A stretch of 64,000 bases of DNA from Pycnococcus provasolii (taxonomy: Eukaryota > Chlorophyta > Pseudoscourfieldiophyceae > Pseudoscourfieldiales > Pycnococcaceae). Shown here piece after piece: positions 4,030-43,684 of the stretch. Position 1 is the stretch's first letter, and the number at the start of each line of letters is the position of its first letter. Where the stretch lies: NCBI GenBank assembly GCA_938743325.2, contig OW568878.1, positions 434,001 to 498,000 on the forward strand, written 5' to 3'. A model generated the notes under the pieces. That model saw only the letters and a program-made list of their open reading frames with translations, was not told the origin of the DNA and did not search any database. A program made the translations under genes and the position numbers.

Positions 4030-7000
4030 TCAATCTTCATCGTCGCTGCTGTCAAGAAGTCCAGCTCGTTTGAGGACTTCATCTTCATCTTCATCATCCT
4101 GCATTTCAGCATCCTCCTCGTCTCCTTGCGCCGCCTGCTCGCCCTCCATCAGGCGACTCTTCTTCCTCAACTTCTTGCCTTTTTTCTCTGCGTCGTCGCC
4201 CTCTTGGTCCTCCTCCTCATGCATTTCTTCATTTTCTTCTTCATCCTCCTCACCCTCCTCTTCGAAAACCTCCTTCTCTTCCCTACGGCGCTTCTTCTTC
4301 TTCTCCTTCTTCTCCTTCTTCTCCTTCTTCTCCGACTCGTCAGCCTTGTCGTCGCCATGTTCCAAAATGAAATGGGCGCGCGCACTTGCCATCTTTTCAG
4401 CCGCATCCCGAGCCGCCTTCTCACGCCTCTGCTCCTCTAGCCGCTTCGCCTCCTTCTCCTTCTCCTCTTCCACGCGTGCTTTTGCCGCTAAGTGCTCGGC
4501 GCGCAGGCGATCCGCGTTGAGCTTGAGCTTGTAGTCTTCAGCTCGCTTTTCCGCAAACGCAATGCAGTTGTCGGCGTTCTTCATTAATGACACACAGTAG
4601 TCAATATGCATTTTGAGTTTGATTGTGTCCAGGCCAAGGCGCATGGCCTCACGAGCTTTTTCGTCCTCACCCTCTGCAACAGTCTGCAGCTGGAGGAGGA
4701 TAGCGAGTGCCTGTTCCTCCATGCACTTGGCCTCCTTGACCGCATCGAGAGCCTCGATGGGATTTAATCTCTTACGATCCTTCCTGTCCCTTGCATTCTT
4801 CTCCCACCCATCCGGCTCGCCGTACAGACGAAATGCGAGTGAGCCGCACTCCTGGAGTTCGTACGCGAGATCAAAACGCATGCGAATGTCCCCCGGCTTC
4901 AGGTGAATCGCCCTGCGCAATGCGCGGATCGCCTCGCGCTGCTCCCCTGCGTCGTGCAGCGTCCTTGCCAAGCACAGCAGAACCTCGTCGTCCACGCCAC
5001 CCCCGTGTACTTCTAGGTAACGTTCGTACATGCGACGCGCAGCCGCAGTCTCGCCATTCGCCAGGTGCACGTGCGCGGTGTTCACCCAGCTGTTGGACTC
5101 TGCCGTCGACAATTTCCCGGCGTATCCCGAGTCACGGGTGCCCCCCGCGGCACTCCTTTCCGCCGCCGCCGCCTCGCTGACCATGGAGAACGCCTCCTTC
5201 GCGTCCGCGAACTGTTCTCGCATGGCAAGGCAACATCCAACGCCATTCGCAGCGTAGGCATTTTGTGGGCCTCCGCCTCCGCCAGACCTTGAGCCACCGC
5301 CGCTCGGGGCAAGCGCTTTCTTGAAGTGCTCGATCGCTCGATTGATGTGGCCATCTCTCTTCTTCTCCTGCTCAGATGCCTCCGCCTTGGGGCCGCCAGA
5401 ATGGACGCTCCTCTTACTCAGAGGAATTTCAGGGGGCGCCGTATTGAGGCAGAGGATGCCCATCGCCGTGTCAGCAAAGCCGTGCTTCTCATCGCTGTGT
5501 GAGCTCCTGAGCTGATCGAGCTGCTTCTTTGCCTCCGCCCAGTCCTTAGCCGCCAGCAGGACATCAGCGAGCATTGCACGGGCCTCCGAGCACGACGCAT
5601 CTACCGCAAGCGCCTTCTCGCAGTGTGCCTTCGCCTCCGACAGGCGTTTTCGGCGACGTGCAAGATGTGCGTCGATAAGGTGAGCCTCCGCATACCACGG
5701 GGCAAGCGCAAGGAGCTCCTCGGTAAATTTCGCGCACTTCGTCTCGTCGCTCGTTGCAGCATGAGAAAGCGCCAAATTGAACAGCACAGCCGCCTCGCCC
5801 GAGGCTACCCCCCTGCCACGCAGAGCCTCTCTTGCAGCAGCAAATCTCGTGGTGGCGAGTGCGACATCTTCACGACGCAGCGCGAGGACTCCCTCATTGT
5901 TGAGGTGAACCGCACTGAACATGTGAGCATTTGAGGTGTTGGCATCGATTGCTGCTGCGTAAGTTTCCTCCGCTGCGGGGTAGTCGCCGGAAAGCGCGGA
6001 AATCTCACCAAGCGACTCTAGCAGTGCCACCCGCGACTCTCCGCTCACATCTCTGAGGCTCTCACGCAAATGCTCAATCGCCCTCGTGTACTTGCCAAGC
6101 GACGATTGCACGTGTCCGAGCATCGTGTGCACATTTTTTACGCCGTACGGATGGCACACCAGAGCTTTTTCGAGCTGAACCGATGCACCCTTCTGGTCGC
6201 CACGCTGTAGGTGCATCTGCGCAAGACCGTAGTGCATGAGCCCCATCGTCGCCGGCAGCGCGGCGTGCAGAGCTGATGTGGACACCGCAGGAGATGACCC
6301 GCTTGTGCCACTTCGGCCGCTGCGGGATGCGCCAGATCCGCTTGCCGCACCGTTCTTCAATTCCTTCATGATGGGCTCCGCAAGCTCGCACGCCTGCTTG
6401 TAGTGTGCCTCCGCCGCCGCCATGTCGCCCTTCGCATGTTTGCACCGCGCTAGCAGGCAGTGAGCATCTGCCGCAAGAGCTGGTCGTGCACCTTCTCCAC
6501 AGGCTCGTCTCGCCGCTTCAGCAAGTTTCTCGCACTCATCCGCCTCGCCCGTGACGTGCTTATGCAGCGCCAGCAACAGGAGTGTGGGCGCATTTCCTGG
6601 CTCCGCATCGTACGCACGTGTGAGCCACTCCAGGCTTCGCTGTATGCGCAGCTGCACCGCCTCCTCCGTCGCGCCGCGGTTCGCCTCCAGCCCCGAGAGT
6701 GTCGCCTCGAGCGTTGCCATCGCGGCCATCGCGGGCACACAAGCGGGGTCGAGCGTGAGAGCACGCACGAAAGCGCGGCGCGCTAGAATGTACTTGCCAA
6801 GACGGAACGCACAGACGCCCAGTCCTACACGCACCAGAGGCGGGCAGCCTGGGTGCTTAGCAAGCGCTGAGCGGAATGCCGATAAACCCTGCTCATAGGC
6901 ACCAGCCGCTAGGTGCGCCATGCCCTGCCCCACGTGCCCCGCGATGCTCTCGCAGCCGAGCACTCGGCAGCTCGCGCCAAACGTCGCCTGCATGAAGTGG

Positions 7001-11719: not shown

Positions 11720-13291
11720 ATGGCCTCGTCGTCGTCGTCGTCGTCGTCGGAGTCGCTGAAGCTGATCAACAACGTTCTCAACTACGTCTCGCTCGCTGGG
11801 TTCGCCATCCTTTTCGCCTTCTTCGTCACGCAGTACAGGCAGAAACGATGCAAGTGGGAGGTCATCTTCGTCGTTGGCACCTCCTTTCTCTTCAGCGGCA
11901 CGTACCACATCTTCGGGTCGCACGTGCCAGCACGCTTCGTCATTGCTGGTATGGAAGAGGGACGCAGCGTGCCGTGGGCGCGATTCGCCGGATATCTCGT
12001 GTCTTGCCCTGTGCTCTTGCTGCACTTGTCCAACCTGAGAGGAGAGGCGAACTACGACACTTTTAGAGCCATGCAGCTCGTTGGTCTCTTCCAATGCGTC
12101 ACACTGTGCGGCATGACGGCGGCAATGTGCGTCGAAGACACACCCAAGGCGTGCTTTCACCTTCTCGGTGGCTGCTTCGCGATCGTCCTCTTCTGGCGCG
12201 TTCGAGGATTGTTCGTCAAGGCACTCGCCGACTTCCCGGAGCAGGCGCGCGGACACTTGTATTTGCTCATGTTCTGCTTCTTTGGCGGCTGGAGCGGTTT
12301 CGGCCTAACGTTCCACCTCGGGCCGGAAGGGTGGGGACTTATAGACCCGGCGCTGCACGACATTATCGTGAGGCTGCTCGACATTCTCACAAAGCACGTT
12401 TACGCGAGTGTCGGGTGGAGCCTGCGGTGGCGCGTGCTGTACCCGCTCGCCCAGATGGGCGTCATTCAGGAGACGTCGAAGGGCTTCGTGGACCACAACA
12501 AGGACGCGGTGCGGCCAAAGGTGCTCTTCGTCAGCAGTTCTGCGAAGTCGTCAGCAGTGGTGCGTTTTTGGCAGAAGAGGATGTTGGCTTGCGGCGTGGA
12601 CGTCGTGTTCAAGACAACCGTCTCGTCAGCCCTGCACGAGATCACAAGCAGGAACGCGGAGTTTGCATTTACGCTCGCGGATATGGAGCTCATCAGATCT
12701 GAGGAGGTGGCCTTTCAAATGCCCGCCATTCGACGAACACCACTGCTTGCCTTCTGCAAGAACACCGAGAATGGCAAGCCCACGGACCTCGATGCGCACG
12801 AGATTGACGACGCGATGTTTGCGCCATACAGTCAAGTACACGTTAGCAATGTGACGAAGTACTGGATCGTTCATTGGTACAGCCGCAGAAGGGAAGGCCT
12901 AGTGGCAACAGAGGACGAGAAAGACGACGGCCATATTGCCGTGGCAATGAATGACGTCGCCCCGCCTCCTTCTCAAAATATGCGAGGGCGTGGTTTCTGG
13001 CGAAGTCCAAGCCAAACGGACCTTGAGATGCTGATGAAATCGAGGAGGGCGGAGAAGGACGTCAAGCTCGACGGTGTGCACGTTGAACTTAATCGCAACG
13101 TTCCTATTAACGGGATTGCAGCGCCAGCTCCTCTTCAGGATCCACGGAACGAGGATGATGAAGAGAAACAAGACGTGTCCAACGAGTCCAACGAGTCGAA
13201 GAAGTCTTCTGATTCTCATCGTTCCAAGCGCTCGTCCGTATCCTTCACCGAGAAGTTGGGATCCCTCCTGAGATTTCCAACGTCTGCATGA
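11720..13291 (+). CDS. Channelrhodopsin, probably anion-conducting or atypical, with receiver-like C-terminal domain
   Basis: This is an intronless 523-residue microbial-type rhodopsin. Seven hydrophobic helices occupy about residues 18-245. Signature matches to CrChR2 are CPVLLLHLSNL in helix 3 (CPVILIHLSNL in ChR2), HLGPEGWG after helix 6 (ILGPEGFG) and DILTK in helix 7 (DLMSK). The retinal Schiff-base lysine is K225, with D221 at the ChR2 D253 position and C96 at C128. Several key acids are replaced by position: E123 is G91, E90 is S55, E97 is Y62, E101 is G66 and D156 is F124; only E47 (E82) of the helix-2 acids remains. W191 matches W223, and G195 stands where ChR2 has P227. Residues about 266-385 form an alternating strand-helix domain like a degenerate response-regulator receiver, as in the tail of algal channelrhodopsins. 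Known relatives gate ions with light for eyespot phototaxis. Anion selectivity is inferred. No N-terminal signal extension is seen. Confidence 0.88.
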   Translation: MASSSSSSSSESLKLINNVLNYVSLAGFAILFAFFVTQYRQKRCKWEVIFVVGTSFLFSGTYHIFGSHVPARFVIAGMEEGRSVPWARFAGYLVSCPVLLLHLSNLRGEANYDTFRAMQLVGLFQCVTLCGMTAAMCVEDTPKACFHLLGGCFAIVLFWRVRGLFVKALADFPEQARGHLYLLMFCFFGGWSGFGLTFHLGPEGWGLIDPALHDIIVRLLDILTKHVYASVGWSLRWRVLYPLAQMGVIQETSKGFVDHNKDAVRPKVLFVSSSAKSSAVVRFWQKRMLACGVDVVFKTTVSSALHEITSRNAEFAFTLADMELIRSEEVAFQMPAIRRTPLLAFCKNTENGKPTDLDAHEIDDAMFAPYSQVHVSNVTKYWIVHWYSRRREGLVATEDEKDDGHIAVAMNDVAPPPSQNMRGRGFWRSPSQTDLEMLMKSRRAEKDVKLDGVHVELNRNVPINGIAAPAPLQDPRNEDDEEKQDVSNESNESKKSSDSHRSKRSSVSFTEKLGSLLRFPTSA

Positions 13292-15786: not shown

Positions 15787-16948
15787 GGCTGCCGATTTAA
15801 TATAAATGCAGGGGAATGGCGGTCGGCGTGGAACCAAACCAGAAGGCGACGGCGGCGGTGGTTCATCAGAGGGACGAAGAGGTATCCTCCGTCAGATTCA
15901 CGGGGATGGGAACACATTCGGAACATAAACACATTCGGGGTTTCGGATTGGATGTTTGATTGGAAAAAAAGCGGGGGCGGGGTTCTGAATTCTGACATCT
16001 GGGGAGGGAGGTTGCCACTTGCCACCATGCCCATAGCCAGGCAACAGGGAGCTTTGCAAGCTTGCAAGTTATTACCGTAGGAAGGTAACCTTCCTAGTAA
16101 GTTACCAGGATGGGCATGGAATCTCGCATAACCTTAGTAAGGTTCATGGCATCACGTTTCCAAGTTGCAAGTGACTGGCAGGGAATCGCGCATACCTTTA
16201 AGGTTATTACGAGTGGCATATCCCTGATGATGATGGCTCCAGCCCAGCCTTATGCATAGCCTGGGATCCCGAAACGTTCCGAAACCTCGTTAAAAGAAGG
16301 TGGTCAAGAAAGCCAAGAAGGAGCGACCATGGGCAATCCGGTGGGGCCCTGACTAAGTACCTGAGGTTCCGGCCAACGGGCCAAACTCGTCACGATTCCC
16401 TAGCTAAAGGTTTAGTAGGGTACTCCATGAGTCGAGGTGCAAAGAGAGGAATTCCTTCATGACGAGGGAAAGCACATCAACTGGATCAACTTTCATTGTG
16501 GTCAAGGACCTTTTGATCGCCAGAAAGGCGATCAAAAGGCGATCATAAGGCGCCTACATAGTAAGTACAGTACTATCCACAGTCTACCATGTGTCGTAGG
16601 GGGGGTGGTATAAGTAGTACTTAGAGGTATGGCGCCGGCGCACCAGCCAGGTGGCCGGCTCGTCGGACATAGGAAGTAGGGGTAGGGGGTGGTATGGCCA
16701 CTGAACTTTACCACTATTAAAAAAGAGGCGTGCAACGAAGCCTTTGCCGTGTTATTACTTTATAACGAAGTCGCATCGCGTGATGGCGTGAGAACATGGA
16801 ATCACAGCCACCTGTCAAAAACGCCTGGGGATTTCCGTCTCAAGTCGCAACTTTCCCCCTCCGCACAGCAAAGCAAAGCACGTCACGCCCAGCGCCCAGG
16901 CTCGTTGTGTTGTGTTGCTGAACTGTGCTGTTCCACCACAATACAGTG
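15787..16948. other. 1.16-kb intergenic region between divergent RPL11 and giant surface-protein genes
   Basis: No coding frame with protein character was seen. It contains a palindromic spot AGGAAGGTAACCTTCCT at about 16079-16095 and a perfect hairpin listed separately at 16509. It should hold the RPL11 promoter at its left end and the promoter of the large gene at its right end. Confidence 0.5.
16509..16539. repeat. Perfect hairpin, 13-bp arms with 5-nt loop
   Basis: The left arm CCTTTTGATCGCC (16509-16521) and the right arm GGCGATCAAAAGG (16527-16539) are exact reverse complements around AGAAA. Another GGCGATC follows at 16538-16544. It lies in the intergenic DNA upstream of the giant gene. 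Its function is unknown. Confidence 0.9.
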
Positions 16949-19900
16949 ATGTCGGAAACCACAATCATGCTCCGTGGTGGCTTCCTCCTCCGCCGACGCA
17001 CCTTAAGACGGCGGCACCTTAAGGGTCTTCCGCGTCTTCCTGCGTCTTCCTTGCTGTTAGTGCGTCTGCCGTCTTTCTTAGCGGTATTATTAGCAACTCT
17101 ACTCCACGCCTTAAGCAACTTGCCTGGTGCCGACACGGCGACGTACTACGTGTCCTCGACAGCTGGCGCAGACACCAACGACGGCCTCTCTCTCGGTGCA
17201 CCGTTTCTTTCGCTGCAAAAGTGCGTCAACGCCATCAAGGCGGACGTGGCGGGCTCAGAATGCCAGCTTCGAGAAGGCGAGTACTACAGCGACAACAGCG
17301 TGTTCGTTGAAAGACTGGAAGGAACTGCTGCACAGCCGTACGTCATACAGGCGTACCAAAAGGAAACCGTGAAAATCGTTGGCACGCGCGACGTCACGGA
17401 GGGAGGAGGAAGCGCGTGGACTTGGACGACGGCAAACCTTGCCGGCGGCGGCGCGGGTGCGGGGCACTGGAGCATCGAGCTTCCTGCAGGTTTTCCAGAT
17501 CCTTGGCAGCTCTTCGTGGATGGTGAGGTGTACATGAACGCGCGCTGGCCCAACGGCAGGTGGGATGATAAGTCTGTGTTCACGAGAAGTGCGTGGGCAT
17601 TTTCCGCCACGGAAACCTCATATGTCGACACCGTGGGCGCGACAAGCACGGTGTGGGACAGCTGCTGCGGAACATCCGCCGGCGTCACGGGCGAGAGTCT
17701 CCAAGCTGCAGGTATCGACGCGACGGGAGCGCACGTCATCATCAACATCGGGTCGTGGATCACATATCCCGCTCCGGTGCTGTCGCACACGCGAGGAACG
17801 GGAAGCTTCACGTTCTCCAAGCAAGATGGCTGGGCCTCGGTTCAAACCGGCGGTACTGTCGGTGCTATGAAATACTACCTCGAGAACAAGCTCGAGCTGC
17901 TTGACGCGGCGATGGAGTGGTTCTACGACAAGGCGACGCGGCGAATCCACCTCATCACCAAGAATGGCGCCAACCCAAACACGATGCGTGTTCAAGCTCG
18001 CGTGCAGGAATACGCGATTCGCAGCACGAAGACAAAGTACCTGACTCTCAAAAATCTTCAATTTTTTGGAACCACCGTGTGGTTTGGTGCGATGAATCAA
18101 AACTCGGACAACGTGAAGGGGATCAGGATGGATTCGCTTCACTTCACGCACCCGTCGGCTTCACAGAGAATGCTTGGCCAGTACTCGTGGTCCTTTCCCA
18201 CGACGCTCTTCGACAAGGGAATTGTGGCTGACGAAAACGTCGTGTACAACTGCACCTTCCTGGGTGCGGAGAGTGATCCACATTTTCACATTCAAGGCTT
18301 GGGAACGCGCTTGGAGAACAACATTTGGGACTGGAATGACTGGTCGACGGCAACAGCGAAAGCGTGTTGGCCGCCCGGGTATGGACTTAGCTCAGACCCC
18401 ACGTCCCCGGACTACTCGTTGAGCACGCGTGACCTCAGCATATCTGGCTGCACAGGGTCCTACGACGGCGGCCGAGGTGCGGGGCTGCTATATTCACTTG
18501 ATGGACTCGTGGGTGTGCCGTTTACCTTGCTCCGCAACACGTTCCGGAACACAGGCGCAACTGGCGGAGTGAAGTTGCGAAAGAATAGCATTGCGAAGCT
18601 GAATCACGTGTACAACATCCTCGAAACTCAGGATTCGTTGAGCGGGACGATGCAGACGAATGGGCATGACTTGTACGAGATTGACGATTATTCTACGACA
18701 TTTTATCCGAGACTGTGCACCGACAGCACTCATCTGAATTCCCAGAGTCAGTGCGATAGCCTTGGCGGCTGCTCTTGGGATGGGACGCAGTGCACAGGCT
18801 TTCCTAGTACGCTGGATACTGCACCTGTGTCCGCGTTCACGGGAGAAAATCGCTACGGTGCGAAGTTCCAGCGAAACTGGATTCATCATCTGCGCACCGA
18901 ATATTCCTATAAACGAGCAATCAGATTCGGCCCACTTGGTCGACCATGCAATGGACGATACGGAGATACGTGGCCAATGTTTGGCGAGGCTACGGAGAAC
19001 GTGATGTGGCAGACGGCGGGGATGGCGATCAGAGGAAATGACCATGTGGTTCAGCGCAATGTCCTTTTTGGGACGGGGTACCAAACGACTTCCTCGACCA
19101 GAAGCACGCCAGATATCATGGTGGAACACTGGGATGTGGATGACAATCAGTACAATGGCATCTGCAACTGCGCGAAAGCCGCGTGCACCACCAACGAGTG
19201 TTGCTACACGGATGGAGGCGGAACCACATACACAACCTCGTACGAGGGCAGGACGAACGTCATCCGCGGCAATGCAATGGAGTGGTTCAAGGACACGCAG
19301 GGCGGTAGCACGGCTTCGCCGAGCACGTCAACGGTGGATTCAGCTCTTGACCCAACGGGGCTCATGACCATTGCACCCTCCGCAAACTCGGCAGGCGTGC
19401 TCTACGACGAGCTGCGCGACCCGAATAACTGGGATTTCAGGCCAAAGAGCGGGTCAAATTTCCTCTCGGCGAGTATCGGTGCATACGACCTGTCAGATCC
19501 AACAAAGTACTGGATTCCAGGCCGTCGCGATTACCGCGCGACCATTCCGGTACCTCCTCACGATGCGACCGACGTCAAGATTGATGCCGACCTGATGTTC
19601 CTTCCCGGCAAGGAGGACGGAAATGTGCCAGTTTCCCACAACGTCTACATCGCGTGGACTGAGGCCGAGCTCAACGCGATGGCCACGCCAACAGGAACGC
19701 TGACGGGCGAGTGGAACAACGTATTTTCCGTTCCAAGCGATCTAGTATGCAGAGGAAGGAAGCTGTACTGGCGCGTGGATACGGCGATGGGGTCGAGTTC
19801 TGTGATATATCGCGGAGAGACGTGGTCATATACGTATGAAGATTGGCCTGCTCAAGCACCAAACAAGCCACCGGATGAATGCACGACAATCACGGACAGC

Positions 19901-22900
19901 AGCACATATGCCCTTCCCACGAGTAGTGATGGAACAAATTGGGATATAGCGAGGATTACGATTCCGAACTACTACAGTGACACGTCGACGTACACATTTT
20001 CGAGCTTGAAAGTGTGCTTCAACGATCTGCAGTTTGCTGGTGGGATCGGCCAAACCCAGATCCGTATGGCTAGCACTGGGGGCCAACATGCAAAGGGAGT
20101 CTGGAATAGCGAAGGTGGCACTGCAACGCAGCTGCAGAACACATGCTTTACGGACTCGGGGTCCGCCGCGATTCCTTCCACTGCATCGTCGGCGCCATTC
20201 ACAGGCGACTGGCTTCCGACTGATCGCACAATAAATGCCTTGGCAACTTCATCTAATCTTGGCGTGACCTCAGGAGAATATGTCAGGTTCGGGTTCAAAA
20301 ATCACGGCGGAACCTCGGCATCCGGAAGTCTGACTGGCTGGTCTGTTACGATCTGCTTCACCGGCGGAGATTCGCTGCGCACCACGTGGCAGAATGAGGA
20401 GAACGCCTTGCAGGCGGCAAAGGCTGCGGAGCTTGCAGGGCCATGTGGTGGTCCTCATCCACCACCACCACCCCCTCCGCCACCGCCGCTGCCACCGCCA
20501 CCGCCGCCTCCGACTCCAAGCTCTCCTCCCCCTCCTCCTTCCCCTCCTCCTTCCCCTCCTCCTTCCCCTCCTCCTTCCCCTCCTCCTCCTCCTCCTGTGG
20601 TGGCACTGTCATCGCCACCGCCACCACCACCACCACTTTCACCGCCGCCGCCCGATCTCACGCGCCCAACAACAGTTGTGAGGATGAGCGATGGCCGTGT
20701 TGGATCACAGGCATCGCCTATCGTGGTTACAGCACACACGATTGATTTGACGGTGTTATTCGTGGAAGACAATCCATACGACGGTATTGAGGGCGCCGTC
20801 AATCAACCAATCTACAACTTCATAAAGGACGATGTCACCTCGAAGACGGGTTTTGCGCTGAAGACGGATTCCGCGTCGCTGAGCACAGTGGTTTCGTACA
20901 ACGTGAATCTCAAGGTTTTGGGTGCGGACGTGAGCGTGCCGCTCGATGGCCAAAGTGCCTTTGAGGCATCCATCACTCCTGATGTGCCAGACGGCATATG
21001 TGGTGAATACATTGATATCGAGGTACATGTTGGAGAAGGCGTTGCAAATGACGCTCAAGGCAATGGGAATATCAAGTCTGGGGTGGTGTATGTGCGATGG
21101 GCACCGGGCGTGGCGAAACTGCCTTCATGCCCGTCGCCACCGCCGCCGGGGGTACCGGCGGCACCTCAGCCTTCTCCGCCTCCCTCACCACCACCTCCAC
21201 CACCACCTCCACCTTCTCCTCCACCTCCACCTTCTCCTCCACCTCCACCTGCTCCACCACTACCACCCGCGCCGCCGCCAGATCCCTGCACTGCGACAGG
21301 CACCTGCTCGCCACCGCCACCACCATACCCAGCTCCGGACTTGCAAGGCCCAACGCCTGTTTTGGCCGATACGCTTGACGGATCAAGTCTGCAATTGTCT
21401 TGGATAGATAGTGGTGTGCTCGAGGCGGTATTCGGATTTACGTCGAACGATGTGACGCTTGCATCTTCGGCGCTCGGTGAATTTACGAATATCGCTCTGA
21501 TGCCGCTTGGAACGCCATCGTCGATCGTTAATGGCGTCTCCGACGGTTACTCAAATTTCACGCTGTCCTTCACATTTGAGCAAAGTGGCTGCTACAGCAG
21601 CAGCTCAGCAAATGCAACGATTAGCATAGCAGAGGGCGCCGCAGCAGATTCTGCGGGAAATCCTAGTGAAGCTGGGAATTTCAGCTTCACGCTGAGTCCG
21701 CTGCGCTTGTGCATGCCGCCACCTCCTCCAAATCCACCCCCTCCAGACTCTACTGCCCCAAACGCACTGCTTGCGCTCGACAACGGAGCAAGCGGCTCGC
21801 TGGAATCACCTGTGGTGGTGACCACATCAGCCATTGGTCTTACTCTGAAGTTCGTCGAAGACGATCCCTACGACGGACTTGCCAGCTTTGTGAAAGAGGC
21901 GATGTTCGGGCTTACTGCGAACGACATTGTCACCTATACTTTCTTTTCGCAGAAGACAGCGCTTGCGACACCAGCAACCGCAATTGCATATGACGTAGCC
22001 GTGGCTGCATCTGGCGCGGACGCGGGAACCTCGCTTGACGGCAAGAGCAGCTTTGATGTGGCGGTCACGCCAAGTGTACCGATTGGCATATGCGGAGATC
22101 ACGTGGACATTCAGCTCGCTCTTAAAGCCGGAGCTGCGAAGGATGCGCAAGGCAATAGCAACCTTCGTTCGGAGGTTGTGTACTTGCGTTGGTCACCGGG
22201 TGCGGCGATTCTACCTCCTTGCATGTCGCCGAGCCCGCCGCCGAATCCACCGCCGAGCCCACCGCCGAGTCCACCGCCTCCGAGTCCACCGCCTCCGAGT
22301 CCACCTGCTCCCCCATCGCCGCCACCGAATCCTTGCGTGGGCTCTGGACTCTGCTCGCCACCGCCTCCGAATCCACCATCGCCGCCCATGCCTTCATCAC
22401 CGCCGCCTCCGAGTCCACCTCCATCACCGCCGCCACCCCCTCCACCCCCACCACCTCGTCTCTCGATGGTACTATCCAGCGCGGAAGATTCATCCGTCGA
22501 GGATAGTTCGAATGTTGAAGAAGGTGACGACGATGTCGTTCTTGGTGACGTTGATATAGTCGACATGCCGGACCGGAACATGAACCCGCCACCTCCAGGA
22601 TTTCCGCCACCATCCCCCGCACTGCCGCCGCCAAGGCCACCGCCGAGTCCACCGCCTCCTACGCCCCCCCTTCCCCCTCGAATCTCGTCGAGATCAGCCG
22701 TGGTCGCTGCGGAGGCAACTGCTGCCGTCGCTCCAAGCGCCGTTGCGTCTAGCGTGGCCTCAACAACTTTCATGTCGGGCTTGCAGCTCGTTTGGTCGAA
22801 GCGCACGGAGTGGGCCCCGTCGCCGTCAACGGGAAGTCCATTCCGTCTTGCCATGAGGATTCAAATAGTGGCTGCGACAGCATGGCTTTTCCGCAACTAC

Positions 22901-24856
22901 CGCGCACCTTCCACGACCTCTCCCGAGCGTGACGAAACGGAGAGGGTTACGACTCGCCATCGACTCGCCGAAATCTCCAACGTCGAGGGTAAGACTCAAG
23001 AGGCGATTGCTTTGGCAAGTTGGGACACGAGCGCGTATCACGCACTTCTGTTTGTGAATCTCGTCGAGCCTTCTCCAATATGGAATGATGGTGGTGGCAA
23101 GAAAACTACGAGCGCGCGTCTGATGCTCGAACGTTGTCTTTTCTGGGCGGCTGTGGGTTTATTTATTGCCTGGTGTTTCCGTTACCTCCTGCGAATGCAC
23201 TGGAATCGTCGTTCCACTCAGCGCAAGGTTGACAGCAAGAGGATGGCAGCTGCTGACCAAGCTTCCGTGTCAAATATATGGGATTTGTCTACGGGTGCAA
23301 TGGCGGCACTCAACGCGGGCAAGATTCCAGAAGAATGGGACAGGCTTCATGCACCACACCTACTTTCGTTTCCCCGCGTTGAGAATGTAATTGGCATGCT
23401 CGTCGTGATACCTTGCGTGCTCGCATTCGCCACTTTCATATCCGACGTCGCCGAGGGCTACGAAGAACTCGGCCATGTGACTAACCTTATTGCCGTGTTC
23501 ATCTCTGGGTCTATTGTCGCTATGTACTTCAGCATTACAGCAATTGCGGTAAAGGGTGCATCAGGAATCGTGCCTAGCATTGAATTCGTGAAACGCGACG
23601 CTGGTGGTGGGCACTGGCGCTCGTGTCGAGTGGATCGCCGCCACTTCGCTTCACGCTACGGGCTCTCTCTTGCATCTCAGCGCGGCCCCGAGGACGAACG
23701 CGACAAGAGACGCCTCGTCGCCTATGCGTGGATTGGACCAACTCTACTGTGCTTGGCAGCGCTGTGCTGTGCCTATGGAGGTTCCGCGCACGCCGGCAAC
23801 GAGCGACGTGGAATGTTTGCCTTCGGTGCAGGCTTTTGTATGGCGCTGGATTCGGTTCTATCCATGTCGATACGGCCAATGCACACGCGCATTTGGAACT
23901 TCTTCGACGTCATTGCGACATTGTGCATATGTGCCGGCTTCGTTCTGCATGGTATGCACTTCACGAGAAATATGAAGGGCTCTTCGGAACTTGGCGTTGG
24001 CCTGCACCTCGCCTCCGTGCTTGTGTTGGCGCTGGTCGAATTCATGGTGTCCTTAGGCGGAGTCTGGAGCTTCATTTGGGCGCGTTGTTTCGGAAAGCGG
24101 CAAGGGCAGTCGCGCTCGTTGAGTCGCTCTACAACGCTAAGCAGTGCATCGTTTAAGGGCGATCCTGTGCGCATTGCTGCAGGTCATTGGCTAAAGTTGG
24201 CAGGCTTTGGCAAGGGTGACGTGGGTGGTATAGTTCTGGAGGACACGCCCATCGGCGCGTCAAAAGTACGCGTGGCTTTGCTCAAGGAAAATGGGAAATC
24301 AGTTGTGAAGACGGTTCCTGTGTCTCATGTGATTTTCGATGACGAGGTACAACGTGACGACAAAAACTCGTCATCATCCACGAAGAGTAAGGAAACGGAC
24401 AAGGCAAAACGTGGGTGGCGAATATTATCGGGAATGACAAAAGTCATGTTTCCAATGACACCCGGCGCGCGAGGGCGAAGGAACGTAAATTCGTTCCGCC
24501 TTGACGACGAGTCTGGGATATCATCCTCCGATGATCGAGACCTTGAGTTGAATTCCTTTGTCATTCAAATGAATGACACATCTCCATCTCCCAACATCAG
24601 ATCTGCCAAGAAGCAAGTGCCGCTGTACCGTGAACCGACGATACCGAGTGTTCCGTCAAACCCTTTGAAAGACGATTTCACGGATAGACGCTCTGGAAGA
24701 CGATGGAAGACGCTCTCAAACGATCTCAATGGAGTCGTTGGGCGCATTGTTGAAGACGGTGTTTCGGAGCTTAACGTGACGCGGAGTGAGCTTGACGTCG
24801 GCTTTGGAATGAAAGCTGGCGAAAGCAAGGACGTGAGCTCATTTTTGTTTCGTTGA
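16949..24856 (+). CDS. Giant mosaic surface protein: beta-helix, P-like domain, Ig-like repeats, proline spacers, multi-pass membrane end
   Basis: A single open exon codes for about 2635 residues from the ATG at 16949 (the frame is open slightly further up). Order: basic N-terminus and signal or anchor helix (about 30-50); right-handed beta-helix region like pectate-lyase folds (about 60-860, opening TYYVSSTAGADTNDG); a fibronectin-like stretch (about 895-960); a proprotein-convertase P-like beta domain (about 980-1140). Then proline spacers at about 1170-1235, 1394-1460, 1757-1838 and 1879-1910 separate three bacterial Ig-like repeats (about 1236-1392, 1462-1588, 1600-1755), each with a DAQGN or DSAGN-type motif. 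Repeats 1 and 3 are close copies, both ending in VY(V/L)RW(A/S)PG. About seven hydrophobic helices lie at 2063-2380, then a serine-rich cytosolic tail. It probably forms an extracellular fibre anchored in the plasma membrane. Polysaccharide binding is inferred. No whole-length relative is known to me. Confidence 0.8.
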   Translation: MSETTIMLRGGFLLRRRTLRRRHLKGLPRLPASSLLLVRLPSFLAVLLATLLHALSNLPGADTATYYVSSTAGADTNDGLSLGAPFLSLQKCVNAIKADVAGSECQLREGEYYSDNSVFVERLEGTAAQPYVIQAYQKETVKIVGTRDVTEGGGSAWTWTTANLAGGGAGAGHWSIELPAGFPDPWQLFVDGEVYMNARWPNGRWDDKSVFTRSAWAFSATETSYVDTVGATSTVWDSCCGTSAGVTGESLQAAGIDATGAHVIINIGSWITYPAPVLSHTRGTGSFTFSKQDGWASVQTGGTVGAMKYYLENKLELLDAAMEWFYDKATRRIHLITKNGANPNTMRVQARVQEYAIRSTKTKYLTLKNLQFFGTTVWFGAMNQNSDNVKGIRMDSLHFTHPSASQRMLGQYSWSFPTTLFDKGIVADENVVYNCTFLGAESDPHFHIQGLGTRLENNIWDWNDWSTATAKACWPPGYGLSSDPTSPDYSLSTRDLSISGCTGSYDGGRGAGLLYSLDGLVGVPFTLLRNTFRNTGATGGVKLRKNSIAKLNHVYNILETQDSLSGTMQTNGHDLYEIDDYSTTFYPRLCTDSTHLNSQSQCDSLGGCSWDGTQCTGFPSTLDTAPVSAFTGENRYGAKFQRNWIHHLRTEYSYKRAIRFGPLGRPCNGRYGDTWPMFGEATENVMWQTAGMAIRGNDHVVQRNVLFGTGYQTTSSTRSTPDIMVEHWDVDDNQYNGICNCAKAACTTNECCYTDGGGTTYTTSYEGRTNVIRGNAMEWFKDTQGGSTASPSTSTVDSALDPTGLMTIAPSANSAGVLYDELRDPNNWDFRPKSGSNFLSASIGAYDLSDPTKYWIPGRRDYRATIPVPPHDATDVKIDADLMFLPGKEDGNVPVSHNVYIAWTEAELNAMATPTGTLTGEWNNVFSVPSDLVCRGRKLYWRVDTAMGSSSVIYRGETWSYTYEDWPAQAPNKPPDECTTITDSSTYALPTSSDGTNWDIARITIPNYYSDTSTYTFSSLKVCFNDLQFAGGIGQTQIRMASTGGQHAKGVWNSEGGTATQLQNTCFTDSGSAAIPSTASSAPFTGDWLPTDRTINALATSSNLGVTSGEYVRFGFKNHGGTSASGSLTGWSVTICFTGGDSLRTTWQNEENALQAAKAAELAGPCGGPHPPPPPPPPPPLPPPPPPPTPSSPPPPPSPPPSPPPSPPPSPPPPPPVVALSSPPPPPPPLSPPPPDLTRPTTVVRMSDGRVGSQASPIVVTAHTIDLTVLFVEDNPYDGIEGAVNQPIYNFIKDDVTSKTGFALKTDSASLSTVVSYNVNLKVLGADVSVPLDGQSAFEASITPDVPDGICGEYIDIEVHVGEGVANDAQGNGNIKSGVVYVRWAPGVAKLPSCPSPPPPGVPAAPQPSPPPSPPPPPPPPPSPPPPPSPPPPPAPPLPPAPPPDPCTATGTCSPPPPPYPAPDLQGPTPVLADTLDGSSLQLSWIDSGVLEAVFGFTSNDVTLASSALGEFTNIALMPLGTPSSIVNGVSDGYSNFTLSFTFEQSGCYSSSSANATISIAEGAAADSAGNPSEAGNFSFTLSPLRLCMPPPPPNPPPPDSTAPNALLALDNGASGSLESPVVVTTSAIGLTLKFVEDDPYDGLASFVKEAMFGLTANDIVTYTFFSQKTALATPATAIAYDVAVAASGADAGTSLDGKSSFDVAVTPSVPIGICGDHVDIQLALKAGAAKDAQGNSNLRSEVVYLRWSPGAAILPPCMSPSPPPNPPPSPPPSPPPPSPPPPSPPAPPSPPPNPCVGSGLCSPPPPNPPSPPMPSSPPPPSPPPSPPPPPPPPPPRLSMVLSSAEDSSVEDSSNVEEGDDDVVLGDVDIVDMPDRNMNPPPPGFPPPSPALPPPRPPPSPPPPTPPLPPRISSRSAVVAAEATAAVAPSAVASSVASTTFMSGLQLVWSKRTEWAPSPSTGSPFRLAMRIQIVAATAWLFRNYRAPSTTSPERDETERVTTRHRLAEISNVEGKTQEAIALASWDTSAYHALLFVNLVEPSPIWNDGGGKKTTSARLMLERCLFWAAVGLFIAWCFRYLLRMHWNRRSTQRKVDSKRMAAADQASVSNIWDLSTGAMAALNAGKIPEEWDRLHAPHLLSFPRVENVIGMLVVIPCVLAFATFISDVAEGYEELGHVTNLIAVFISGSIVAMYFSITAIAVKGASGIVPSIEFVKRDAGGGHWRSCRVDRRHFASRYGLSLASQRGPEDERDKRRLVAYAWIGPTLLCLAALCCAYGGSAHAGNERRGMFAFGAGFCMALDSVLSMSIRPMHTRIWNFFDVIATLCICAGFVLHGMHFTRNMKGSSELGVGLHLASVLVLALVEFMVSLGGVWSFIWARCFGKRQGQSRSLSRSTTLSSASFKGDPVRIAAGHWLKLAGFGKGDVGGIVLEDTPIGASKVRVALLKENGKSVVKTVPVSHVIFDDEVQRDDKNSSSSTKSKETDKAKRGWRILSGMTKVMFPMTPGARGRRNVNSFRLDDESGISSSDDRDLELNSFVIQMNDTSPSPNIRSAKKQVPLYREPTIPSVPSNPLKDDFTDRRSGRRWKTLSNDLNGVVGRIVEDGVSELNVTRSELDVGFGMKAGESKDVSSFLFR

Positions 24857-37483: not shown

Positions 37484-39997
37484 TCACCTTCGACCTACGG
37501 CGTCGTTGACCATAGCACACACTTCGTGGCTAACCTTGTCAGCGGGGCTCACGCACGCGCTCACGCGCATCGTGACCCTGAGCGGTGCTACTGCGCCATA
37601 AGGTTCGCCCTTAATTAACGCGCCTGCCACCGCGCGCCCCACCTCTTTACCCTTTCCGTTCCCTACCGTACTCGCCATGTCCGGACTGGGATTGGGAATT
37701 GTGACGGGGACTCCGTCAAGATTGAGGTCACTTTGAGTTGCCTTGTTACCTGGGTTACGAGCAACTGCCGTGTACCACTCGGCATACTCTTCAGGCGTCG
37801 CAAGCCTCACTTGTCCGCCCAGGTTGCGTTCCTCCCCGTCATCCAACCTTGCTCCAGAGTTATCTTCCTCCGTTGCCAAGGGGAATCGCGAGGGCACGTC
37901 GGCATTAGCATGCGACGCTCCAGCCCTGTGAATGACCACCAAGTCATATTGTTCCACCATTAATGCCCACCTCGTGTGGTGTGCATTTTTCTTCTGAGAG
38001 GAGTCCATCAACCAAACTAAAGGTTGGTGGTCCGTGATCAACTTGATATGCCTTCCCCAGATGTAGGGGTGAAACGTACGTAACGCCCACGTCACAGCGA
38101 GCAGTTCGCCATAATATGACGGATACTTAGCTTCGTGTACGTTTAGGCTACGCGAGATGCACGCGCACAGCCTCTCCTTCCCGTCCGGTCCCACTTGAGC
38201 TAGCACGGCAGCTATGCCGTACGAACTAAAGTCGGTATAGACGTGCGTCTCCAGCTCATCGTCGAAGTGGAACAACCCTACGCCGGGCGTTGCCAACTTC
38301 TCTTTCAACTCGTCCAACTGGGCTTGGTGCTCGTCGGTCCACGCACCCTTCACCCATACTGCACCTTTCTTGAGCAATGGTCTCATTCCTTCAATCATTG
38401 CTGACGCATTAGGGATGAAAGACCGGTAGTAGGAGATTAGGCCGAGCTGTGACCTTAAGTCACTGGCACTCTCTGGCCTCCCCATACCTATAATCGCCTT
38501 GACCTTGGCCTCATCTGGTGTAACGCCGTTCCCACCCACCTTGTGTCCTAGGAACTCCACAGTCGCCAACCCGAACTTACTCTTGTCTGGGTGTAACCTC
38601 AAACCTGTGGCGTTACACATGGCGAACATACGCTCAAGTGCCTTCAAATGGTCACTCCACTCATCGTGGTGTACACACAGGTCATCTATGTAGCAGGTGG
38701 TTTCGTTGTCCAATCCCGCCACCGCCAGTTCTCGGTCCATTACCGTTTGGAACTTGGCAGCCGCGTTGACGTAACCGAACGTCATCCGCTCCCATACATA
38801 GATTTTGCCCTTCCACCAAAACTGGGTAAGGTGTATGCTACCGGGGTCCATGGGAACCTGGTTGAAACCCTTCCGCAGGTCCACCGCGGTGATGTACTTC
38901 GCCGCTGAAAGGCGCGCGATCTGGTCATCGGCACGGTGCATACCCCGCCTGTCCCGTATGGTAATGGCGTTCACACTCCTCGAATCCGCACACACCCTAC
39001 AATCCGTCCACTCTCCGGTCTTCGCATCTTTCTTAGCTGCGACCGTGGTGTTCATTGCGTGGAGCCCGTACTGGTGCTCTCCCAACTTATATTCCCGAAT
39101 GTACCCCGCGTCCAGAAACGCTTGGTACCATTCATCCACCTTCTCTTGTTCCGCCTTGTTCAACCTCCTCTGGCGTTGGCGGGTTTCAACTGACGTGTCC
39201 GTTACATCTATCTTGAACGGTCCGTCAACCCCACTGTACCCTGGAATGTCGTCATTGCTCCACGCAAACGCTCCTTTATTCCTGTTCAACAGTTCCAACA
39301 ATTCCACCTTTTGCTCCTCGGTCAATCGTGACGCTACCATCCATCCGTCTCGCGTCTCCACGCTCTCTTCCAGCCCGACGTCACCGTATGGTGTCATTGC
39401 GTCTATGAGCCGTGCTGGGCGCCTTGGCGCGACTTTTGTCTCGCTCGTCACCGTGCAAACTGCCCACACTTGGCGCTTGACGTGAGCTCCTCCAACTAGC
39501 GTCAGCGCTACCACGGTTGCCAGCCACATCTTGACTTCAAACAACACGAGCCACGCGAGCAGTACGGTTAGCACCGTGCCCGCCATCCACCCTCGCCGTG
39601 CCGGGCGCTTGGTATCCACCATTTTGTTCATCCTCCTGGCTTGGGACTTGTTCCACTTGATGCGCCGCGGTGGATGCGTCCAGCCATTCCTTCTCGCCTC
39701 GTCTTCGAACGTGCTTCCACCTGTACTCTCGGCCCACGTGGTCGCGTCTTCGTTGACGTTACTTGCGGACGTACCCGTGCTGGGTGTGGACATTGCCACC
39801 GCCAGTACCCACAGCACTCCGAGCCACATTATCCATCTCTTCAAACCATAAACCCTTCGTGTTTTTCCCCCTCCCTTACTTCCCTCAGCCGATGGCGAGG
39901 TCTTTACGCTCGCAGCGCATCCACCAGTAGGCGCGCGAGCTCCTCGTTTCCCGAGCCATCCTGTGAGTTGTGTTCCGGCTCGTCGACTGCCGTGCAA
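37484..39997 (-). mobile_element. Reverse transcriptase-RNase H region of the retroelement fossil
   Basis: Two hydrophobic segments come first, then a Ty3/Gypsy-type reverse transcriptase (AVDLRKGFNQVPM, YVNAAAKFQ, YIDDLCVH) and RNase H (TDFSSYGIAAVLAQ, LITDHQPLVWLM). It overlaps the preceding region by about 94 nt. Confidence 0.8.
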
Positions 39998-43104: not shown

Positions 43105-43136
<32 letters not shown>

Positions 43137-43211
43137 GATCGTTGTCCCTTTGGGATTCCTCTCCTGCTGCTGCTGCTGCTGCTGCTGCGATCGTGGTCCC
43201 TTTGGGATTCC

Positions 43212-43267
<56 letters not shown>

Positions 43268-43290
43268 GATCGTGGTCCCTTTGGGATTCC

Positions 43291-43322
<32 letters not shown>

Positions 43323-43346
43323 GATCGTGGTCCCTTTGGGATCCTC

Positions 43347-43377
<31 letters not shown>

Positions 43378-43499
43378 GATCGTTGTCCCTTTGGGATCCT
43401 CCTCCTGCTGCTGCTGCTGCTGCGATCGTTGTCCCTTTGGGATTCCTCTCCTGCTGCTGCTGCTGCTGCTGCTGCGATCGTGGTCCCTTTGGGATCCTC

Positions 43500-43530
<31 letters not shown>

Positions 43531-43684
43531 GATCGTTGTCCCTTTGGGATTCCTCTCCTGCTGCTGCTGCTGCTGCTGCGATCGTTGTCCCTTTGGGATT
43601 CCTCTCCTGCTGCTGCTGCTGCGGTCGTGGTCCGGTCCCTTTGGGATCCTCCTCCTCTCCTGCTGCTGCTGCGGTCGTTGTCCA
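43100..43684. repeat. CTG/CAG-rich minisatellite
   Basis: About ten to eleven units alternate a (CTG)n run of variable length (about 4 to 18 triplets) with a spacer of about 30 bp that reads CGATCGT(G/T)GTCCC then TTTGGGAT(T)CCTC. The reverse strand reads as a glutamine-rich open frame, which I take to be a by-product. It lies in the upstream region of the retroelement. Confidence 0.9.

Follow-up and report, generated by a model that had tools for sequence, protein, structure and literature searches.

The locus studied here raises the question of what a green-algal channelrhodopsin does when most of the acidic residues of its gate have been replaced. The window (the whole stretch of 64,000 nucleotides analysed, G000:C18:434001-498000) belongs to a genome of 32.33 Mb in 46 contigs. 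It contains an uninterrupted reading frame, probably a single exon (Table 1). The original prediction described its product as a channelrhodopsin without almost all the acidic gate and counterion residues of CrChR2. It proposed an anion channel, or a channelrhodopsin with unusual gating.

Identity of the window gene

The Pfam domain Bac_rhodopsin matches residues 20-237 of the window protein (8.7e-25). The residues K225, D221 and C96 and the CPVLLLHLSNL and GPEGWG signatures are at the places where the original prediction located them. The Pfam and structure matches agree with the identity that it gave. The retinal lysine is present, and it aligns with K257 of CrChR2.

A sequence search of solved structures found KnChR as the closest relative (1.2e-29), followed by iC++, C1C2 and CrChR2. 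GtACR1 was far weaker in the same search (4.8e-7 at best). The AlphaFold model of residues 1-400 had a mean pLDDT of 53 and was used for the fold match alone, not for pore geometry. Its best PDB fold matches were channelrhodopsins. From its sequence, we regard the gene as encoding a channelrhodopsin of the green-algal type, for which a passive light-gated current is predicted.

Table 1. Position of the channelrhodopsin gene, its domains and its main residues in the window. CrChR2 residues are in parentheses unless otherwise indicated.
Feature	Coordinates	Strand	Basis
Channelrhodopsin gene, uninterrupted ORF, 523 aa and stop	11720..13291	+	ORF list, translation, Pfam
Seven-helix rhodopsin domain, residues about 10-250	11747..12469	+	Pfam; low-confidence model
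E47, kept (E82)	11858..11860	+	MAFFT alignment
Helix 2: S55 (E90), F58 (K93), Y62 (E97), G66 (E101)	11882..11917	+	Alignment
G91 (E123; bacteriorhodopsin D85)	11990..11992	+	Alignment
S95-C96-P97, TCP motif of helix 3	12002..12010	+	Translation, alignment
F124 (D156)	12089..12091	+	Alignment; F in 3/3 clade genes
Retinal pocket: H147 (F178; MsACR1 F138), G151 (L182; MsACR1 W142)	12158..12172	+	Alignment; MsACR1 numbers mapped by spacing
G195 (P227; bacteriorhodopsin P186; MsACR1 G186)	12302..12304	+	Alignment
D221 (counterion D253), T224, K225 (retinal Schiff base), H226 (N258)	12380..12397	+	Alignment
Putative degenerate response-regulator receiver-like domain, residues about 265-395	12512..12904	+	C4 model, three-domain profile, alignment homology
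C-terminal tail, poorly conserved, Ser- and charge-rich	12905..13288	+	Translation, window/C37 comparison

Substitutions at the gate and counterion positions

The replacement of E90, E97, E101, E123 and D156 by S55, Y62, G66, G91 and F124 was confirmed, and it was the same under four MAFFT settings. We counted the carboxylates at CrChR2 positions 82, 83, 90, 97, 101, 123, 156 and 253 in 11 aligned rows. The window protein (EVSYGGFD), its homolog on contig C37 (EVSYGGFD) and the one on contig C4 (EVGAGGFD) conserve two of the eight. The counts are higher in CrChR2 (8), the C9 protein and Chrimson (7 each), KnChR (6) and the C39 protein (4). GtACR1, ChRmine and bacteriorhodopsin have three each, the letters of the last two being alignment-dependent.

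Consequently, the loss of acidic residues claimed at first applies to six of the eight positions. E82 (as E47) and the counterion D253 (as D221) are conserved. Since this helix-7 counterion is kept, the loss of "counterion residues" refers to E123 only. R88 (R120), C96 (C128), H102 (H134), K225 (K257) and R236 (R268) are also conserved. Further changes, absent from the original prediction, are F28 (S63), V48 (E83), F58 (K93), H147 (F178), G151 (L182), G195 (P227) and H226 (N258). The glycine at the P186 site of bacteriorhodopsin occurs in all three genes of the clade (window, C37 and C4), and the other eight rows lack it.

Five channelrhodopsin loci and selection pressure

A whole-genome Pfam search and a protein search agree on five channelrhodopsin loci, on contigs C18 (the window), C37, C4, C9 and C39. 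We aligned them with CrChR2, Chrimson, KnChR (partial), GtACR1, ChRmine and bacteriorhodopsin, and made a tree of these 11 rows. The window and C37 genes group at 100/100, and C4 joins them at 100/99. The AU test rejects none of five deeper groupings (p 0.123 to 0.385), including those with GtACR1 (0.207), KnChR (0.129), ChRmine (0.123) and bacteriorhodopsin (0.161).

The original prediction set the channel clade against a placement with pump or sensory rhodopsins. On this point the profile scores favor green-algal-type channelrhodopsins over pumps, and the 11-row tree leaves the bacteriorhodopsin grouping unrejected. Among the best 60 of 107 profile matches, KnChR (1.3e-41) and C1C2 (2.5e-36) lead, and GtACR1 (3.4e-16) is barely above the best pump chain (4.3e-14).

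We compared the window and C37 genes by region. The membrane domain shows 72% identity, with dN of 0.205, dS of 1.21 and differences at 46 of 86 fourfold sites. Its dN/dS is about 0.17, a rough ratio because dS is near saturation. The receiver region has 41% identity (dN 0.53, dS 1.44). The tail has 44% identity over 86 aligned codons, where dS was not computable. Judging from these codon comparisons, the membrane domain is evidently maintained by selection rather than in decay. The string of eight positions is identical in C37 and differs at two positions in C4, and dN is low relative to dS. For these reasons, the loss of acids is not a product of chance or decay.

The C9 locus (L001 1363-3015, G000:C9) encodes a 550-aa channelrhodopsin of the cation type, in which seven of the eight ChR2 carboxylates are kept. 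By carboxylate count, three channels of the genome are strongly depleted, one is of the cation type and one is intermediate. The last corresponds to the C39 gene (L008 about 4098-5717, G000:C39). It presents T at C128 (TTP for TCP) and N at D156, together with D at E90, G at E123 and H at E101. By alignment, this protein carries natural changes at both DC-gate positions. Mutants of ChR2 at the DC-gate positions are long-lived open channels.

Comparison with prasinophyte ACRs and ion selectivity

The loss of E90 is among the features published for prasinophyte and Labyrinthulea anion channelrhodopsins (ACRs). A review states that all ACRs known by 2022 are without a carboxylate at the Asp85 site (PMC8818676). 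The prasinophyte family goes back to Rozenberg 2020, as cited in a report on MsACR1 of Mantoniella squamata (eLife 2024, PMC11473104). In this report MsACR1 is a chloride channel with a peak at 555 nm, and the residues given are T87, G123, F138, W142, W182, F185, G186, D215 (putative counterion) and S218. We compared MsACR1 by these published residues, whose numbering was mapped to our alignment by spacing.

The window protein resembles MsACR1, and PymeACR1 and Py2087ACR1 of Pyramimonas, in being a channelrhodopsin with a helix-7 counterion and a non-conserved E90. It also shares with MsACR1 the W-x-x-F-G of helix 6 (MsACR1 W182, F185, G186). The prasinophyte ACR marks in the window protein are non-carboxylates at the E90 (S55) and E123 (G91) sites and G195 at the P186 site, the glycine being a signature known from one published member, MsACR1. 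GtACR1 (6CSM), a cryptophyte ACR, is similar in its non-carboxylates at the E83, E97, E101, E123 and D156 sites and in keeping the helix-7 D and K. However, it has P at the P186 site and 20% identity to the window protein. It also has E at the E90 site (GtACR1 E68), a cryptophyte-ACR mark that the window protein does not present.

The chlorophyte CCRs CrChR2, Chrimson and C1C2 share with the window protein the fold, the TCP/SCP motif, LSNL and GPEG. E82, H134 and R268 of CrChR2 are kept as well. On the other hand, the window protein differs from CrChR2 in the six lost carboxylates and at N258, K93 and P227. KnChR (Klebsormidium, 9J7W) is the top solved relative by both sequence and fold, but it retains E90, E97, E123 and D156.

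The original prediction did not decide whether the gene belongs to a described group or to a new one. Its residue signatures lean to the described prasinophyte ACR group, and they suggest one more member of this recently described family. We therefore consider the window gene a probable ACR gene of the prasinophyte type, whose product would be a light-gated channel for anions (chloride) in a flagellated green alga. This anion channel is the best reading of the E90 loss, of G195 and of the clade. The earlier argument from the missing acids alone was too strong, since CsCCR and MsCCR, two prasinophyte CCRs, share with cryptophyte ACRs the glutamate pattern in which E82 and E90 are kept and yet are proton-selective (mBio 2021, PMC8406140). 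Unusual gating, as also proposed, is plausible.

The same two proteins suggest another explanation: the window protein could be a proton-selective or weakly cation-selective channelrhodopsin, in which the missing glutamates do not make an anion channel. It has been published that the wider protein context sets selectivity. Nevertheless, CsCCR and MsCCR keep E90, whereas the window protein has S55 and has lost E123 and D156 too. A cation-type gene is already present elsewhere in the genome, on C9, and MsACR1, the source of the G186 signature, is a measured ACR. We find this explanation unlikely. Residue patterns alone have misled before, as with CsCCR, MsCCR and PymeChR, and this counts against the anion reading. 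The deeper groupings that the AU test leaves unrejected, the GtACR1 profile score close to that of the best pump and the lack of ACR relatives in the viral contigs scanned weigh against it too.

If the window protein is an anion channel, light would isomerize the retinal on K225. Without a helix-3 acceptor (G91), the helix-2 E90 and the helix-4 D156, the Schiff base proton could not take the ChR2 route. The weakly charged pore would pass chloride, and the channel would shift the membrane voltage for photo-orientation, beside the C9 channel of the cation type. That ACRs and CCRs cooperate in motile prasinophytes is proposed, not settled, in the MsACR1 report (PMC11473104). If it conducts chloride, the window protein would allow a test of how the two channel types divide photo-orientation between them. 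It would also add a genome-anchored candidate to the green-algal ACRs, from a species in which three of the five channelrhodopsin genes are ACR-like.

Substitutions in the retinal pocket

The window and C37 proteins present H147, G151 and T224, in contrast with F138, W142 and S218 of MsACR1. C4 has W at the W142 site, as in MsACR1, and Y at the F138 site. In addition, the window protein alone has S95, where MsACR1 has T87. The change T87S in MsACR1 left the spectrum unchanged, and F138N moved it slightly to the red and made closing slow (PMC11473104). With the other changes tested near the ring in that report, the spectrum stayed in place or moved to the blue.

H147 is at the F138 site, and the red-shifted, slow F138N mutant motivates a reading of this pocket. 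On the other hand, the other ring-near changes oppose a confident prediction of a red shift. The window and C37 proteins might be a distinct ACR subgroup, where H147 and G151 shift the spectrum off 555 nm, possibly to the red, with slow closing. Here the C-terminal region would couple to a signaling or scaffold partner, and the alga would hold depolarizing (C9), chloride and long-lived (C39) channels. This is a doubtful proposal, and we make it tentatively. The departure from MsACR1 at two pocket positions is also a point against the anion channel. In any case, H147 and G151 would be natural experiments at sites where MsACR1 mutants altered color or kinetics.

A receiver-like domain after helix 7

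The window, C37 and C4 proteins are assigned a degenerate receiver-like domain in the C-terminal region, by model for C4 and by homology for the window protein. The model of the C4 domain matches receiver domains. Its mean pLDDT is 66, with 70 to 87 in the first six ten-residue blocks and 38 to 77 in the later ones. A profile built from the three domains retrieves the PhoP receiver (3e-4). The window domain is poorly modeled, so the receiver assignment rests on the C4 model and the profile search. The Pfam search of the tails gave nothing above its cut-offs, and neither profile comparison nor phmmer found a receiver match in the C9 tail. The tails of Chlamydomonas channelrhodopsins may look similar.

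Compared with the receiver domains of PhoP, PleD and KdpE, the conserved lysine near strand 5 is replaced by alanine in the window and C37 proteins and by serine in C4. The window and C37 proteins have no acidic pair after strand 1. A possible phospho-aspartate at the third strand is present in these two, and it is asparagine in C4. We presume the usual roles of these residues and their expected places in the alignment. None of the three proteins has the complete phospho-receiver set (acidic pair, phospho-Asp and Lys).

If the protein were a photosensor that conducts little or no current and signals to a partner protein through its receiver-like tail, this could explain why this domain follows closely after helix 7 and why the candidate aspartate is kept in the window and C37. 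PymeChR of Pyramimonas is non-electrogenic in HEK cells (PMC8406140), and in the window protein S63, N258 and D156 of the ChR2 gates are replaced by F28, H226 and F124. Against this, the membrane domain is far better conserved between the window and C37 than the receiver-like domain. Of the inner gate of ChR2, E82, H134 and R268 persist as E47, H102 and R236, although E83 has become V48. We hold such a photosensor to be quite improbable.

For the anion channel that we prefer, the tail may instead be a protein-docking module (for example, for eyespot or flagellar placement) rather than a phosphorylation switch. Docking is more likely because the conserved lysine is lost, and the acidic pair is lost in the window and C37. 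Other tails are named in one article for three modular channelrhodopsins (FimV, MED15 and UL36), together with response regulators for sensory-type rhodopsins (PMC7693036). Among the matches listed in a limited literature search, there was no channelrhodopsin with a receiver-type tail, and one may still be published. The domain would offer a concrete part for testing the cytoplasmic region of the protein.

Genomic context and origin of the gene

The neighboring reading frames in the window include TPR, LRR, Prp8 and ubiquitin-hydrolase genes, according to Pfam. Because of neighbors such as Prp8, we took the window as host nuclear DNA. Elsewhere in the genome, four RbcS copies are close together past base 1,062,000 of contig C2 (L019 to L022, G000:C2:1062583-1067729), and a fifth, weaker match is on C14. 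This C2 contig (>1 Mb) was taken as nuclear. RbcS on a nuclear contig presumably fits the green lineage. The genome search also found one IFT46 gene and RPE65-family oxygenase matches at eight places (10 matches). By sequence similarity, these genes fit a flagellated, retinal-making alga.

Prasinophyte ACRs are present in giant-virus genomes (PMC11473104), and this suggests a recent viral acquisition in place of a native gene. Such an origin concerns history and is compatible with the other readings. The reading frames and GT-AG ends indicate two apparent introns in C4 (104 and 123 bases) and a single one in C39 (123 bases), whereas the window and C37 frames are uninterrupted. However, other long reading frames of the window are also uninterrupted (1243, 1196, 708 and 2643 aa). 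The GC3 of the gene is 0.72, against a mean of 0.67 in 16 other hand-picked long ORFs, and host genes such as Prp8 are among its neighbors. Scans of viral contigs gave no ACR relative, and a scan of genome contigs and a tblastn search of a phage collection gave no relative, with the limit that scans by short exact or degenerate patterns would miss distant ones. A recent giant-virus origin is very improbable in our estimate.

Three other features were observed in the window. The 2643-aa frame (16925-24856, plus strand) was searched in three pieces, and Pfam gave a sub-threshold GH141 match in the first only. Positions 43105-43672 contain a tandem array of a 52-base unit in 10.4 copies, open in several frames. 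Finally, a reading frame on the minus strand (37484-39997) has reverse transcriptase and RNase H domains and is probably derived from a retroelement.
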